A stretch of DNA of 64,000 nucleotides from Acetobacteraceae bacterium (GTDB taxonomy: Bacteria; Pseudomonadota; Alphaproteobacteria; Acetobacterales; Acetobacteraceae): assembly GCA_009693865.1 (NCBI GenBank), contig SHWL01000001.1, positions 1 to 64,000 of the forward strand, written 5' to 3'. This document shows, piece after piece, positions 11,793 to 18,357 of the stretch; position 1 is the stretch's first letter, and the number at the start of each line of letters is the position of its first letter. Position numbers and translations under genes: made by a program. The notes below the pieces were generated by a model, which saw nothing but the letters and a program-made list of their open reading frames with translations, ran no database searches and was not told where the DNA came from.

Positions 11793-13190
11793 TCAGCCGC
11801 CTACCCGTTCATCGGAACTGACCCCAAGCTGCTTCAACTTCCGGTGCAGAGCGCTGCGCTCCATTCCGACGAACTGCGCGGTCCGCGAAATATTGCCGCC
11901 AAATCGCAACAACTGCGACTGAAGATATTGCGTTTCGAACAAATCCCGCGCCTCCCGCAATGGAAGCGACATGATGTCGGCACCGGGATCGATGGTCAGG
12001 ACGCGCGGCGCGCTCGAGCCTATTTCGGGCGGAAGCATGTCGGCGCGGATCGCCTCGGTTGCCCCACCCGGCGCCATGATCAGCAGCCAGTCCATCAGAT
12101 TTCGCAACTGCCGCACGTTGCCTGGCCAGTCGTAGGCCTGTAGCGCCGCCAGCGCATCGGCCGACAATTCCCGCGCCGCCATCCCGGAAGTCTCGGCCGA
12201 GCGTCCAATGAAATGCCGGGCGAGGTCCGGCACATCCTCCCGCCGTTCCTTCAACGCAGGCAGTTTCACCGGCACGACGGCCAGCCGGTAAAACAGGTCT
12301 TCGCGGAACCGGCCGGTGCCGATCTCGGCCTGCAAATCGCGATTGGTGGTCGCGATCACCCGGACGTCGACCCTGACCCGGTTGGAGCCTCCGACGCGTT
12401 CGAAACTCTGGTCCTGCAACGCGCGGACGATCTTGCCCTGAGTTTCCAACGGCATATCCGCCACTTCGTCCAGAAGCAGTGTCCCGCCGTGAGCACGTTC
12501 CAATACACCGGCGCGGCGGGGTTGCGCCGACGCGTCGGGGCCGGGCTCGACCCCGAACAGTTCCTCCTCAAAACGGGCGGGCGCCATGGTCGCGCAATTC
12601 ATGACGACAAATGGCCCGTCGGCCCGCCGGGATCGGCCATGGATCATTCGCGCCACGACCTCCTTGCCCGATCCGGCCGGCCCGGCGATGAGCACGCGGG
12701 AACCGGTGGGTGCGACCTTATCCACCTGACCGCGCACCTGTGCCATGGCAGCGGACTCGCCGATGAGCCCGGCTTCGGGGCCGGCGCGAAGGCGGAGTTC
12801 GGCGTTTTCCCGATGCAGGGCCGCGGCTTCCAGAGCGCGACGAACCACCAGCAGCAAGCGGTCTGACTGGAACGGTTTCTCAATGAAGTCGTAGGCCCCG
12901 TGTTGAATGGCGCCTACCGCCATCTCGATCGTGCCATGGCCGGAGATCATGATGACCGGCACTGCTGGCTCCTCGGCGTGGAATGATTCCAGCAATCCAA
13001 TTCCATCGAGCGTTGAGCCCTGTAGCCAGACATCCAAAACGACCAGAGACGGACGGCGCGCATGGAACGCGGCCAAAGCGGTATCTGAGTCGCCAGCGGC
13101 CCGGGTTTCGTAGCCCTCGTCGGCCAGGATGCCGTCGATCAGCATCCGGATATCGGGCTCGTCGTCGACGATCAGAATGTCAAACGCCAT
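11793..13190 (-). CDS. ntrX: Nitrogen regulation response regulator NtrX
   Basis: Response regulator of the NtrYX pair, linked to nitrogen metabolism, redox control and envelope functions in alphaproteobacteria. The receiver domain occupies residues 1-120 with the phosphoacceptor Asp53 (LVVLDVW) and the Lys in FIEKPF. The AAA+ domain has a Walker A AGPAGSGKE and Walker B-like TLLLDEVADMP. The GAFTGA loop needed to contact sigma-54 is absent: the region reads LFGVEPGPDASAQPRRAG, as is usual for NtrX. The C-terminus has a Fis-type HTH (NISRTAQFVGMERSALHRKLKQLG). Its start overlaps the ntrY stop by eleven bases, so the two are coupled. A BIME-like element follows the stop. Confidence 0.95.
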   Translation of the reverse strand: MAFDILIVDDEPDIRMLIDGILADEGYETRAAGDSDTALAAFHARRPSLVVLDVWLQGSTLDGIGLLESFHAEEPAVPVIMISGHGTIEMAVGAIQHGAYDFIEKPFQSDRLLLVVRRALEAAALHRENAELRLRAGPEAGLIGESAAMAQVRGQVDKVAPTGSRVLIAGPAGSGKEVVARMIHGRSRRADGPFVVMNCATMAPARFEEELFGVEPGPDASAQPRRAGVLERAHGGTLLLDEVADMPLETQGKIVRALQDQSFERVGGSNRVRVDVRVIATTNRDLQAEIGTGRFREDLFYRLAVVPVKLPALKERREDVPDLARHFIGRSAETSGMAARELSADALAALQAYDWPGNVRQLRNLMDWLLIMAPGGATEAIRADMLPPEIGSSAPRVLTIDPGADIMSLPLREARDLFETQYLQSQLLRFGGNISRTAQFVGMERSALHRKLKQLGVSSDERVGG

Positions 13191-15468
13191 GAGAGGTTCC
13201 GGCGTGCGACGGCATATACGATGCCCCTGGGACGGAGGTGGACGGCCAAACCAAGGCCGCTACCGTGCCAGGCCCGTCCGGCCGATCCTCCAGAGTTACA
13301 TGACCGCCGTGATCCTCCATGATCTTCTTCACGATCGCGAGTCCCAATCCGGTTCCTTTCGGTTTGTGGGTCACATACGGCTCCATGAGCCGGCCTCTGT
13401 CTTCGCGCGGCAGTCCGATTCCATCATCGGTGACGCGCAGTGATACCAGACCGTTCGAGTCTGTCACGGACACGGTGATCGCCCCGGCGCCGTCCCGCAT
13501 CGCCACCGCGTCAGCCGCGTTGCGCAACAAATTGGTGATCGCCTGCCTCATCATGCGCCGATCGCATGGTACGACCGGCCCACGTGCCGGGATGTCGCTG
13601 GACCAGGCGATCCCCGGGAGCGCCGTCTTCTGCAACACAAGCGTCTCACGGGCGATCAGGCCGACATCCTCCGGTTTGATCACCGGCTGCGGCATCCTCG
13701 CGAAGGCCGAGAACTCGTCGACCATCCGGCCGATATCGCCGACATGACGGATGATCGTGTCGGCACATATCCCGAACGTTTCCGGATCGGAGGTGATTTC
13801 CTTGGTGAACCGGCGCTTCAGCCGTTCGGCCGCCAATTGGATTGGGGTCAGCGGGTTCTTGATCTCATGCGCGATACGCCGCGCGACATCGGCCCAGGCC
13901 GCCTTGCGTTGAGCAAGTTGAAGTTCAGTGATGTCGTCGAAGGTTACAATGAAGCCGTTCACTCTTCCAGCCGTCATCTCCGCCCCGATCCGGACCAGCA
14001 GCGTGCGAGGTTTGCTCGGCGGCCCGATCCGGACTTCTTCGGTGCGCGGGCGCTCTGGCGCGGCGCGCGCGGCTTCGATCAGGCCGGCGAATTCTGGCAC
14101 CACGACCTCCAGGTCGCGGCCGATCGCGGCGAGAAGATCGACCGCCAGCAGTTCGGTGGCGGTGCGGTTTGGCAGTTCGATCCGGCCGCGCGCATCCAGG
14201 CCGATCACGCCGGCCGACACGCCCGCCAGCACGGTCTCGGTAAACCGGCGGCGGCCGTCGATCTGGCTGTAGGCCTCCATCAGTTCGGCCCGTTGCGCGG
14301 CGAGCTGACCGGTCATCCGATTGAACGCGCGCGAAAGGCCCGCGAGTTCGTCACGCGTCTGACCCTCCGTGACGCGCACGCCCAGATCGCCGCCGCGAAC
14401 CCGCTCGGCGGCGTTGATCAGCGTGCCAATGGGACGGGCGATCTGGTTGGCCATGACCAGACCGATCAGCGCGGCGGCAAGCAGCACCAGCAGCGCCACG
14501 ACCGCGAAAATCCATGCGAAGGCGATTTGCAGCCAGGACCGGCTTTCATCCAGACGCTGATATTCCGACACCGCCTGTTCGGTGCGGGTCATGTAGCCGA
14601 GGATCTTCGGATCGACCGGACGGCCAATCATCAGCAGCAACGGCGGCGTCGCATTCAGCCGCGCCACCGCGCGAACGCGCGTGCCATCGCCGCCATTGAG
14701 CACCTGGACATCGCCGTCGAGCGCCTGGCGCGACACAGCCGGCGGCGGTGGATCGACGCCAAACCCCACGAACAGCCCGGCCGCCGCAAGAATCTGGCCG
14801 GTATTGGGCTCGTAAATCACTGCTTCGGTCAGGCCGCGCAGCGTCGTTTGATTGTCCAGCACACTGACGAACACGGACGGGTCGGCGGCGAGATATTGGC
14901 CGGCCCGCGCGAGGTCATTGGCCATTTCCAGCGCATCTGAGCGGATCGTATTGCGGTGTTCCTCCAGGTAGCCGTGGGACACCTGGAGTGATTCCGCCAA
15001 CGCCGCGCGCACCGGATCGTTGAACCAGGCCTGGATGCCGAAATGGAAGAAGGCGACGGCGAAACAGGCGACCAGGATGGTCGGTGCCGCGGCGACACCA
15101 CTGAACAACAGCACAAGGCGGACATGCAGTTGCGAGCCGGCCGAGCCGCGCCGCCGCTCCACCCAGACCCGCGTCAGCCGACCCGCGACCACCGCCCCCA
15201 ACAGCAACAGTACCGATACGTTGGCCAGCACCAGTGTCGTGCCAACCCCGGGCCTGAGGCCGAATGGCGAACCGCGCGCGATAATGATGAACGTCGACAG
15301 ACCGACACACAACGCGATGGCCGCGAGGATGAAAGTCATCGTCTTGCTGACCAGGACCCGGCTGAGGCCGGACAGTAGCGTGGCACCCAGGCCCGGCGCG
15401 GCGGGCACGGGCGGGCCGGACGTCATTTCGTCTGGGGCCAATGCGCTTCTGGGGGAGAAGATGTTCAT
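13180..15468 (-). CDS. ntrY: Nitrogen regulation sensor histidine kinase NtrY
   Basis: Membrane sensor kinase partner of NtrX. Several hydrophobic segments lie in the first 150 residues (for example MTFILAAIALCVGLSTFIIIA and LLLLGAVVAGRL), followed by a large extracytoplasmic loop, another membrane segment (WIFAVVALLVLLAAALIGLVMA), a HAMP domain (RPIGTLINAAERVRGGDLGVRV), a PAS domain (ETVLAGVSAGVIGLDARGRIE) and the kinase core. The H box is RRIAHEIKNPLTPIQLAAERL; the ATPase boxes are NLLRNAADA, DDGIGLP and KGTGLGLAIVKKIMEDHGG. The ORF track extends to 15678, but those residues are translated from the upstream repeat element. The ATG at 15468 gives the usual length of about 762 residues, though its ribosome binding site is weak. 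Confidence 0.93.
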   Translation of the reverse strand: MNIFSPRSALAPDEMTSGPPVPAAPGLGATLLSGLSRVLVSKTMTFILAAIALCVGLSTFIIIARGSPFGLRPGVGTTLVLANVSVLLLLGAVVAGRLTRVWVERRRGSAGSQLHVRLVLLFSGVAAAPTILVACFAVAFFHFGIQAWFNDPVRAALAESLQVSHGYLEEHRNTIRSDALEMANDLARAGQYLAADPSVFVSVLDNQTTLRGLTEAVIYEPNTGQILAAAGLFVGFGVDPPPPAVSRQALDGDVQVLNGGDGTRVRAVARLNATPPLLLMIGRPVDPKILGYMTRTEQAVSEYQRLDESRSWLQIAFAWIFAVVALLVLLAAALIGLVMANQIARPIGTLINAAERVRGGDLGVRVTEGQTRDELAGLSRAFNRMTGQLAAQRAELMEAYSQIDGRRRFTETVLAGVSAGVIGLDARGRIELPNRTATELLAVDLLAAIGRDLEVVVPEFAGLIEAARAAPERPRTEEVRIGPPSKPRTLLVRIGAEMTAGRVNGFIVTFDDITELQLAQRKAAWADVARRIAHEIKNPLTPIQLAAERLKRRFTKEITSDPETFGICADTIIRHVGDIGRMVDEFSAFARMPQPVIKPEDVGLIARETLVLQKTALPGIAWSSDIPARGPVVPCDRRMMRQAITNLLRNAADAVAMRDGAGAITVSVTDSNGLVSLRVTDDGIGLPREDRGRLMEPYVTHKPKGTGLGLAIVKKIMEDHGGHVTLEDRPDGPGTVAALVWPSTSVPGASYMPSHAGTSHGV

Positions 15469-15481
15469 CCCGTCCGGCCAC

Positions 15482-15750
15482 CGGAAGGGGCTTGCGCCGG
15501 GGAAGCGTCCGGGCTCCGACCCGAAACCCGCCAGGAGGTTCTGCTCCCTGGACCTCCGGCAAAGGCAGTGGCCTTCGCAATCCGTCCATTTCTGGTTGGG
15601 AGTGAGAGGGGGCCTGCTCGGATGTTGAAAGGTCTCTGATGCCCCCCTCTCACTCCCAACCAAATTGAGGGGTTCCAAGGGCCACTGCCCTTGGCGGGAG
15701 TCCAGAGGGCGGCGCCCTCTGGTCGGGGTCCGGGGTGAAACCCCGGCGCC
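15482..15750. repeat. Large compound inverted repeat between ntrC and ntrY
   Basis: A 20-base perfect stem, TGGTTGGGAGTGAGAGGGGG (15593-15612) with its complement at 15643-15662, surrounds a 30-base loop. The similarity continues outward: the left flank (CCAGGAGG...CTCCCTGG, then GGCAAAGGCAGTGGCC) is an imperfect reverse complement of the right flank (CCAAGGGCCACTGCCCTTGG, CCAGAGGGCGGCGCCCTCTGG, CCGGGGTGAAACCCCGG). Each outer motif is also a hairpin. It looks like two copies of the same intergenic repeat unit inserted head to head. It fills nearly the whole 298-base ntrC-ntrY gap and would strongly structure the ntrCYX transcript. The 102-codon ORF on the minus strand here is a by-product of the repeat. 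Confidence 0.72.
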
Positions 15751-15766
15751 CTCCCGGCGCGGGCTG

Positions 15767-17224
15767 TCACATCACGCCCCGGATCACGGGGATTTCCAGG
15801 TCGCGGATTTTCTTGCGCAACGTATTGCGATTGAGGCCCAGCATGGCGGCGGCCTTGATCTGGTTGCCACGTGTCGCGGCCAGGGTCAGGCGGATCAGCG
15901 GCCGCTCCACTTCCGCGATGATCCGGTCGTACACCCCAGTGATCGCCATGCCGTCGTCATGGGCCGCGAGGAATTCCTTGATGTGACGTTCCACCGCGCG
16001 AGATAGCGTGTCCGGACCGGTCCGGGCCGGCTGATCCGGCGTTTGGATCGGAGTGGGCGCGGCTTCGGCCAGATCCGCGTTGACGATATCGCCCGTGATG
16101 GTTTCCTCGGGGCACAGCGCGGCGAGCCGCCGCATCAGGTTTTCCAGCTCCCGCACATTACCGGGCCAGGGATGTTGTTTCAGCCTGTCCACGGCGGTCT
16201 GATCCAGGTTCTTCGGGGGCAGGCCGTCTTCCCGCGCGCGATCCATGAAGTGGCGAGCCAGCAATGGAATGTCCTCCGCCCGTTCGCGCAGCGGCGGCAG
16301 ACGAATTGGGACAACGTTCAGGCGGTAGAACAAGTCTTCGCGAAATTGCCCGAGCCTTATGGCGTTGCGCAGGTCGCGGTGGGTGGCGGCGATGATGCGG
16401 ACATTGGCCTTGATCGGCTGGCGGCCACCCACCGAGGTGAATTCGCCCTCTTGCAGCACGCGCAACAAGCGGGTTTGCGCTTCGGGCGGCATGTCGCCGA
16501 TCTCATCCAGGAACAGTGTGCCACCGTTGGCCTGTTCGAAGCGGCCCTGGGTACGGTTGGTGGCGCCGGTAAAGGCGCCGCGCTCATGGCCGAACAATTC
16601 GCTTTCGATCAGTTCGCGCGGGATCGCAGCCATGTTGACAGCGACAAAAGGTCCGGCCCGGCGCTTGCCGTAATCGTGCAGCGCGCGCGCCACCAATTCC
16701 TTCCCGGTGCCGGACTCGCCGTTGATCATCACCGTCAGATCGGCGGTCGTGAGCCGCGCGATGGTCCGGTAAATCTCCTGCATCGACGGGCTACGGCCGA
16801 TCAGCGGCAGACGCTCCTCCGAGTCGCGCGCCTCAGGAGCCCAGATTGTGTGTTCGGCGGGCACCTGCAGCGCGCGGCCGACAACGGAGATCAATTCGGC
16901 CAGGTCGAACGGCTTCGGCAAATACTCGAAGGCGCCGCGCTGGGCCGCCTTGACCGCCGTCATCAGCGTCGATTGCGCGCTCATGACGATCACCCGCAAA
17001 TCAGGGCGGATGCGCTTGATGCGCGGGATCAGATCGAGACCGTTTTCATCGGGCATCACCACGTCGGTGATGACAAGATCGCCCTCCCCCTCCTCCACCC
17101 AACGCCAGAGCGTCGCCGCATTCCCGGTACTGCGAACCTGATAACCGCTGCGCCCAAGGGCCTGGGTCAGGACGGTTCGGATCGATCGGTCGTCGTCGGC
17201 GACGAGAACGGTCGGCGGCGTCAT
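15767..17224 (-). CDS. ntrC: Nitrogen regulation response regulator NtrC
   Basis: Sigma-54 activator of nitrogen assimilation genes, phosphorylated by NtrB. The receiver domain has Asp54 ([13 protein letters not shown]) and [10 protein letters not shown]. The central AAA+ domain has Walker A GESGTGKE, an intact sigma-54 loop GAFTGA ([15 protein letters not shown]), Walker [14 protein letters not shown] and the R-finger region. The C-terminal Fis-type HTH is [24 protein letters not shown]. The true length is 485 residues. The track ORF extends upstream to 17617 through ntrB in another frame. The ATG at 17224 shares its A with the ntrB stop (TGATG), so translation is coupled. The contrast with the GAFTGA-less NtrX two genes away is clear. 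Confidence 0.97.
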
Positions 17225-18357
17225 CAAGCAGGATCCTTTTCCGAAACGACCGGCAAATGCAGGCGAAATTCTGTACGCCCAGGCCGGGAGTCGACCTCGA
17301 TCAGCCCCCCATGGTCGCCAACGATCTTGGCGACCAGCGACAGGCCCAATCCGCTGCCCGATGCCTTGGAGGTCACGAAGGGTTCGAACAAATGCGGTCT
17401 GATGTCCTCGGGGATGCCCGGCCCATTGTCCCGGACCCCGACATAAAGCGGCAGATCGACCCGCTCTGACGTGCCGGGCACGGCGATCCGCATGCCGTGT
17501 TGAAACCCGGTGGTGAGCACGATTTCTGGATGCGCGACACCGGCCGTGAGAATCGCTTCGGCGGCGTTCTTCACGAGGTTCAGGATGACCTGCACCAACT
17601 GGTCCCGGTTGCCCCATACCGGCGGCAGCGAAGGATCGTAATTCTCCTGAAACCGCACGGTTTCCGCGAAGCCCGATTGCGCCAGTCGCCGCACGTGCTC
17701 CAACACGCGATGGACATTCACGGCGGTGCGCGCAATCGGCTTTTCCGAGAACGCCTCCATCCGGTCGACCAGCGCGCGAATGCGGTCGGCTTCGTCGCGG
17801 ATCAGCACCGTAAGCTCGCGGTCCGCCTCATCGACGCTCGCCTCCAGCAACTGGGCCGCGCCGCGAATGCCGGACAGTGGATTCTTCACCTCATGCGCCA
17901 GGATCGCCGCCATGCCACTGACACTGCGTGCCGCGCCCCGGAACGCGAGTTGGCGATCCAGCGAGCGTGCAGCCGAAGCATCCTGCAAAACCAGAACGAC
18001 CGCGCCCGGTTCCTCCGCCATGGCTGAGCCCAGTACCGTGATGCCCGTTTTGACGAGGCGTGGGCTTTCCAGCGACAGATCGTGGTTGGACACCGTGCCT
18101 TCGGTCTGGCGCACCTGTTCAATCAGCAAATACAGCGGACTGTCGGCAGGAACCAGGTCGTTCAACCGCATTTGCGCGAGGCCGGAGGCGGAGATGCCGA
18201 GAAATTGCTCGGCGGCGTGATTGACCTGGCGAAACCGGTTGTCCGCGTCCAGCACGACGACCGGAACCGGCAGCGCGCTGAGGATCGCCGCGCTATCGAT
18301 TGCGCGCGGGCCTCGGCCAGGGAGCAAGCCAACCGCGCGGGAGAGGACGGAACTCAT
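17224..18357 (-). CDS. ntrB: Nitrogen regulation sensor histidine kinase NtrB
   Basis: Soluble kinase/phosphatase that senses nitrogen status through PII protein and controls NtrC. The N-terminal PAS domain covers about residues 25-130 ([29 protein letters not shown]). The H box is [26 protein letters not shown]. The ATPase domain has [35 protein letters not shown] and [19 protein letters not shown], the last highly typical of NtrB. There are no membrane segments. The 377-residue length is normal. The start codon overlaps the dusB stop (ATGA) and its own stop overlaps the ntrC start, so dusB-ntrB-ntrC is a tightly coupled operon. Confidence 0.96.

Follow-up and report, generated by a model that had tools for sequence, protein, structure and literature searches.

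The ntr locus and its intergenic palindrome

The window analysed here is a stretch of 64,000 nucleotides from the draft genome of an Acetobacteraceae bacterium (4.48 Mb, 209 contigs, completeness 81%). Its minus strand carries the gene order dusB-ntrB-ntrC-ntrY-ntrX. NtrC (TIGR01818, 703 bits), NtrX (NF051870, 697 bits), and DusB score above the cut-offs of their profiles, and the NtrB protein gives its best score with NR(II), yet below the cut-off. NtrY is identified by its position and by orthology with the neighbouring ntrC/ntrY pairs of relatives. The gap between the ntrC stop codon and the ntrY start codon is taken up by a compound palindrome, about 280 nt long, whose parts are listed in Table 1.

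The palindrome consists of a long central hairpin with three short hairpins on each side. The central arms, 20 bp long and 100% complementary, enclose a 30-nt apex, and the element as a whole matches its own reverse complement at 70% across 267 bases. The first-pass annotation had described a perfect 20-base stem, two imperfect copies of one unit in head-to-head orientation, flanks that form hairpins of their own, and a place inside the ntr operon between ntrC and ntrY. The complementarity, the self-match, the hairpins (for example, H5), and the gene assignments with their coordinates confirm this description.

Table 1. Features of the palindromic element and its neighbouring genes (positions in the window).
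Feature	Position	Strand	Basis or remark
ntrY	13180..15468	-	ATG at 15468, 14 nt past the element; position and ntrC-ntrY orthology in relatives
Whole palindromic element, REP/BIME-like, Acetobacteraceae family	15482..15765 (approximate)		BLAST family and covariance model R1
Terminal inverted repeat, left, GCGCCGGGGAAGCG	15494..15507	+	Arm alignment
H1, outer short hairpin, CGGGCTCCGACCCG	15510..15523	+	Sequence, family alignment
H2, short hairpin, CCAGGAGGTTCTGCTCCCTGG, partly decayed in the ntr copy	15531..15551	+	Sequence; intact in other copies
H3, short hairpin, CAAAGGCAGTGGCCTTCG	15560..15577	+	Sequence; covarying helix 2
Central hypervariable stem, left arm	15593..15612	+	14/17 consensus pairs with both-side changes between copies
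Apex, 30 nt	15613..15642		Halves not homogenised with each other; sequence comparison
Central hypervariable stem, right arm	15643..15662	+	Complementarity to left arm
H4, short hairpin, CCAAGGGCCACTGCCCTTGG	15675..15694	+	Sequence, family alignment, covariation
H5, short hairpin, CCAGAGGGCGGCGCCCTCTGG	15702..15722	+	Hairpin type that hosts an IS in other copies
H6, outer short hairpin, CCGGGGTGAAACCCCGG	15730..15746	+	Sequence, family alignment
Terminal inverted repeat, right (reverse complement GCGCCGGGAGGGCG)	15747..15760	-	Arm alignment
ntrC	about 15767..17230	-	Stop at 15767, abuts the element; TIGR01818, 703 bits

The palindrome is real and stands far above chance expectation. Folded as RNA of the minus strand it reaches -182.7 kcal/mol, where shuffled sequences reach -131.2 ± 6.1 (z = -8.5), and folding of the element as DNA gives z = -7.9 against shuffled sequence. 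Neither an intrinsic-terminator-like site (a GC hairpin with a T run behind it) nor a sigma-70-like site is present inside the element, and an intrinsic terminator is ruled out for the former reason. A role as terminator only is rejected for the family as well, because copies also lie between divergent genes, despite the frequent location of one end at a stop codon. Rfam 15 returned sub-threshold matches alone, nearly all to miRNA hairpin models, which argues against a known RNA family; a plasmid origin is rejected, since the ntr copy has no plasmid match.

A dispersed repeat family in the Acetobacteraceae

BLAST with the ntr element gave 66 matches at no fewer than 40 places in this genome. 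The first-pass annotation had named absence of the unit elsewhere in the genome as one half of what would refute it, and this half does not hold. H1-H6 and the central stem are common to the copies in the family alignment. A covariance model (R1) built from 34 copies matches 20 of 29 genomes of the genus, with a few to more than 100 matches each (both strands counted), and the family is present in half of the sampled Acetobacteraceae genera (30/60). These copy numbers are lower bounds, as part of the first-look candidates were scored. About 140 genomes of the class outside the Acetobacteraceae gave no match at E ≤ 1e-4 under stricter filters, and a composition artefact of the model is rejected on this ground. 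Copies in other genera (G067, G077, and G088) have the order hairpin, spacer, long stem with a G-rich block plus C at its end, apex, stem, spacer, and hairpin, and their sequences differ. Judged by NtrY, the closest relatives that have a name are Acidisphaera sp. S103 and genomes of Rhodopila.

All copies for which gene context was determined with a simple gene finder are intergenic (18 between codirectional, 6 between convergent, and 5 between divergent genes), and several to many have a stop codon at one end. Terminal inverted repeats are present, with TTAAGGAAGG ends in G006, G008, and G041 and GCGCCGGG ends in the ntr copy. A search for the Y1/RAYT transposase (Y1_Tnp, PF01797) found none in this genome at its 81% completeness. 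RAYT occurs in 5 of the 29 genus genomes without correlation to copy number, G007 being the only one of these five with a large copy number; a RAYT-driven REP is rejected on these two grounds. No published description of the family was found in the open-licence literature. The ntr palindrome is one copy of a dispersed, non-coding, REP/BIME-like repeat of the Acetobacteraceae and not an ntr-specific device.

Two further regularities concern the shape of the copies. GTTnnAAC is frequent at the apex centre (for example, GTTGCAAC, GTTTCAAC, and GTTGAAAC) in G000, G006, G007, G067, and G107, the remaining apex being variable. At some loci (L036, about 2470-2840, L047, L033, and L064) the inverted similarity of the flanks extends past the shared element in a locus-specific manner; in L036, 27 of 31 bases outside the element are inverted-similar, as if the palindrome grew outward.

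The ntr junction in relatives and a possible local effect

In many relatives the ntrC-ntrY spacer is about 30 nt or less. In G007, which of the relatives with both genes on one contig is the closest, they are separated by a different spacer of 172 nt without the element, and other relatives carry unrelated CGTCATGGCCGGG-type palindromes at the junction. G004 has half an element at a contig start beside ntrY, and here it is the opposite half that faces ntrY. The short spacers, the other palindromes, and the spacer of G007 indicate that the element is lineage-specific at this junction. Because several relatives carry other palindromes there, the junction is a tolerant site for palindromic repeats. 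Junction palindromes of the CGTCATGGCCGGGC...GCCCGGCCATGACG type were seen at L168, L176 (tandem), L187, L088, L089, and L095.

In a dusB-ntrBC-ntrYX transcript, a very stable hairpin is predicted directly after the ntrC stop codon. By analogy with REPs near stop codons, it may lower or uncouple the expression of neighbouring genes, and an effect of the element on NtrYX expression is plausible; such an effect need not be the reason why the element is kept. For E. coli, downregulation of translation is reported for REPs that lie fewer than 16 nt away from stop codons (PMC12306157).

Sequence turnover in the central stem

The central stem changes its sequence and keeps its pairing. Among 35 copies in this genome there are 34 distinct left-arm sequences; 22 of the stems pair perfectly, and the two arms of a copy mismatch on average at 2.1% per bp, whereas arms from different copies share 67% identity. 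Five other genomes show the same relation, with within-copy mismatches of 0.5-4.9% against 62-77% identity between arms of different copies. In the 34-copy alignment, 14 of 17 stem pairs have changes on both sides. The number of cells changed on both sides is 154, compared with 52 ± 5.5 after shuffling and at most 47 with partners slid. For pairs of copies in this genome whose flanking modules are at least 95% identical, the modules are 97% identical and the stems about 83%.

The 60-nt flanks on either side of the central stem are on average 62% identical to each other within one copy (copies of this genome), so that homogenisation is confined to the stem. Conservation in the stem lies in an apex-proximal GGGGGCC-type block, and the apex is not homogenised. 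Stem mismatch is equal across gene contexts (2.5% between divergent and 2.3% between codirectional genes). Over all genomes, G-T and A-C mismatches in the stem are about equal, a weak observation given that the orientation of a palindrome is arbitrary; as a test of wobble bias for RNA-level selection it is uninformative for the same reason and was set aside.

Orthologous copies in related species

Changes within single copies could be followed in G006, G008, and G041, genomes of the same genus with an ntr-region identity of 90-92%, at shared element sites whose flanks can be aligned. Eight comparisons with hand-aligned arms, several of which share a genome, contain 7 changes that are identical in the two arms, 16 changes in one arm, and 3 unmatched changes. 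By permutation 0.52 paired changes are expected, and none of 20,000 permutations reached 7. Three neighbourhood pairs also match between this genome and G007; they were excluded from the count since their flanking modules differ.

Among the individual events, SET3a has a 1-nt T insertion in both arms, and both arms of SET6 carry the adjacent two-base change TG -> CC. The G041 copies of SET2 and SET3 are inverted in place between the terminal repeats, and in SET5 the G006 copy has cleanly lost the central stem and nothing else. Stem divergence between orthologues is of the order of flank divergence, and it therefore appears that the stem sequence is free and only the pairing is held.

Proposed template switching and its alternatives

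The comparisons between copies suggest that the stem probably stays self-complementary by the recopying of one arm from the other during DNA replication. During replication of the palindrome, the nascent strand would fold back on, or switch to, the opposite arm. The switch point would be the conserved apex-proximal G-rich block, from which copying would run outward and then return. A mutation in one arm would thereby be copied across or erased, such that the sequence drifts and the hairpin stays perfect, and the same template switching would also invert the element. The conserved GGGGGCC-type block and the non-homogenised apex are as expected if copying starts there and goes outward, and we read the paired indel, the paired substitutions, the inversions, and the stem loss as marks of template switching between palindrome arms. 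There is precedent for such events. Template switching between inverted-repeat arms leads to arm homogenization and spacer inversion (PMC8604942), and it can give rise to hairpins and maintain them, with multibase compensatory changes (PMC8794818). Arm homogenization together with inversion at orthologous sites, the hallmark of an inverted repeat maintained by template switching, is found here. Since one-arm changes exceed paired ones in the orthologues (16 vs 7), copying would be slow, and selection could achieve the same. Whole-stem replacement from another copy would also mimic paired changes.

The main rival is that the hairpin is useful to the host and that selection on each copy keeps the pairing through ordinary compensatory mutation, which we regard as rather unlikely. 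The uses that come into question are protection of mRNA 3' ends, Rho-dependent attenuation, and binding of a nucleoid protein or of gyrase at a DNA site. Covariation well above shuffles, an architecture that several genera share although the sequences differ, and a stop codon at one end of many copies, like some E. coli REPs (PMC12306157), speak for selection. However, every gene orientation is occupied with equal pairing, and no copy was detected in roughly half of the genera sampled or in about one third of the genomes of the genus. The paired indel, the adjacent substitutions in both arms, the inversions in place, and the clean loss of a stem are, moreover, signatures of mutation. The absence of a G-T excess over A-C in stem mismatches points the same way, weakly because of the arbitrary orientation. 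It is worth noting that covariation across copies is usually taken as proof of a selected RNA structure. The paired changes, inversions, and stem loss seen here are also expected from DNA-level copying, which would make the family a caution for RNA-structure discovery; it would also serve as a natural bacterial test set for DNA copying versus selection.

A mobile element (MITE or REPIN) that transposes through a hairpin intermediate, and so makes a fresh perfect stem at each jump, could explain the high copy number, the terminal inverted repeats, the lineage-specific presence at the ntr junction, and the occurrence of roughly one stem sequence per copy beside near-identical flanking modules (the 97% against 83% of the pairs in this genome). 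We consider it improbable, because orthologous copies keep their stem apart from a few paired or single changes, which implies that stems also evolve in place. Moreover, Y1/RAYT is absent from this genome and present in just five genomes of the genus, and no target-site duplication could be defined, as relatives with both sides of a junction are too divergent and offer no close empty site. Still less probable is dedicated machinery that rewrites the central stem across the Acetobacteraceae, diversifying it and copying it from arm to arm to give each copy a perfectly palindromic tag. Least probable of all, and very doubtful, is retention of the element at the ntr site to separate NtrBC from NtrYX expression. 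The exact fit from ntrC stop to ntrY start and the element at the G004 junction favour it. This is the reading of the first-pass annotation, in which the palindrome's position would split the operon's transcription or stabilise its upstream part. As a specific claim it is not supported: copies occur in many unrelated intergenic regions and in all gene orientations. The genome-wide family, the element-free junction of G007, the short spacers or other palindromes of further relatives, and the lack of a terminator or promoter consensus in the element also argue against a splitting role.

Relation to known repeats

The element resembles REP/BIME repeats (GTAG and CGTC superfamilies) in being extragenic and palindromic, in its tens to more than 100 copies, in its hairpins of alternating orientation, and in its frequent position beside stop codons. 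REPs, however, are about 14-50 nt with a common motif, whereas the whole element is about 250 nt, with seven hairpins and a long central stem without consensus; single flanking hairpins (e.g. H2-H5) do have REP-like size and consensus. By eye, in an uncounted inspection of the 40 listed copies, no GTAG was seen at the hairpin feet, and GTAG lies near the apex in some. A GTAG REP, or REPtron, has a conserved GTAG tetranucleotide at the foot of its palindrome and an associated RAYT; the latter was not found in this genome. A survey of tagged REPs (PMC3733652) reports CGTC repeats as missing in the Acetobacteraceae, a gap that this repeat would fill.

Like MITEs and REPINs, the element is short, non-coding, dispersed, and hairpin-forming, and it has terminal inverted repeats, but no parent transposase was found, none of the copies encountered has a gene inside, and it is not AT-rich, unlike typical prokaryotic MITEs (PMC10969869). 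With quasipalindrome correction by template switching it shares arm homogenization, multibase paired changes, and inversion (PMC8604942, PMC8794818). The template-switch precedents are yeast coding sequences and RNA genes, whereas here the process would work on a dispersed repeat family and yield one stem sequence per copy. The element works like a REP/BIME-type repeat and is filed neither as a GTAG REP nor as a proven MITE. Its distinctive character is a hypervariable, arm-homogenised stem in a dispersed family. ERIC is an intergenic imperfect palindrome of more than 100 nt with a sequence consensus through its centre; both are long intergenic palindromes, and they differ in that the central stem of the Acetobacteraceae element has no consensus.

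Insertions within the hairpins

Two kinds of insert were observed in the short hairpins. An IS with ends CATACGCGCGAA... sits at one point (GGGCnnnGCCC followed directly by CATACGCGCGAA) in hairpins of the family or similar ones at 10 or more places, and from this insertion pattern it is a putative hairpin-targeting IS. It was seen at contig ends or junctions of this genome at L032, L035, L037, L038, L051, and L056, and further at L058, L062, L063, L410, L413, and L414. A nested, hairpin-forming insert of about 22 nt (CCCCCGCCTTCGCAGGGGCATG type) lies within the H2/H5 or H4 hairpins at L037, L039, L042, L043, L052, L057, L059, L060, L061, and L065. The same type of insert is present in G008 (L356 and L357), where the G006 orthologues are without it.
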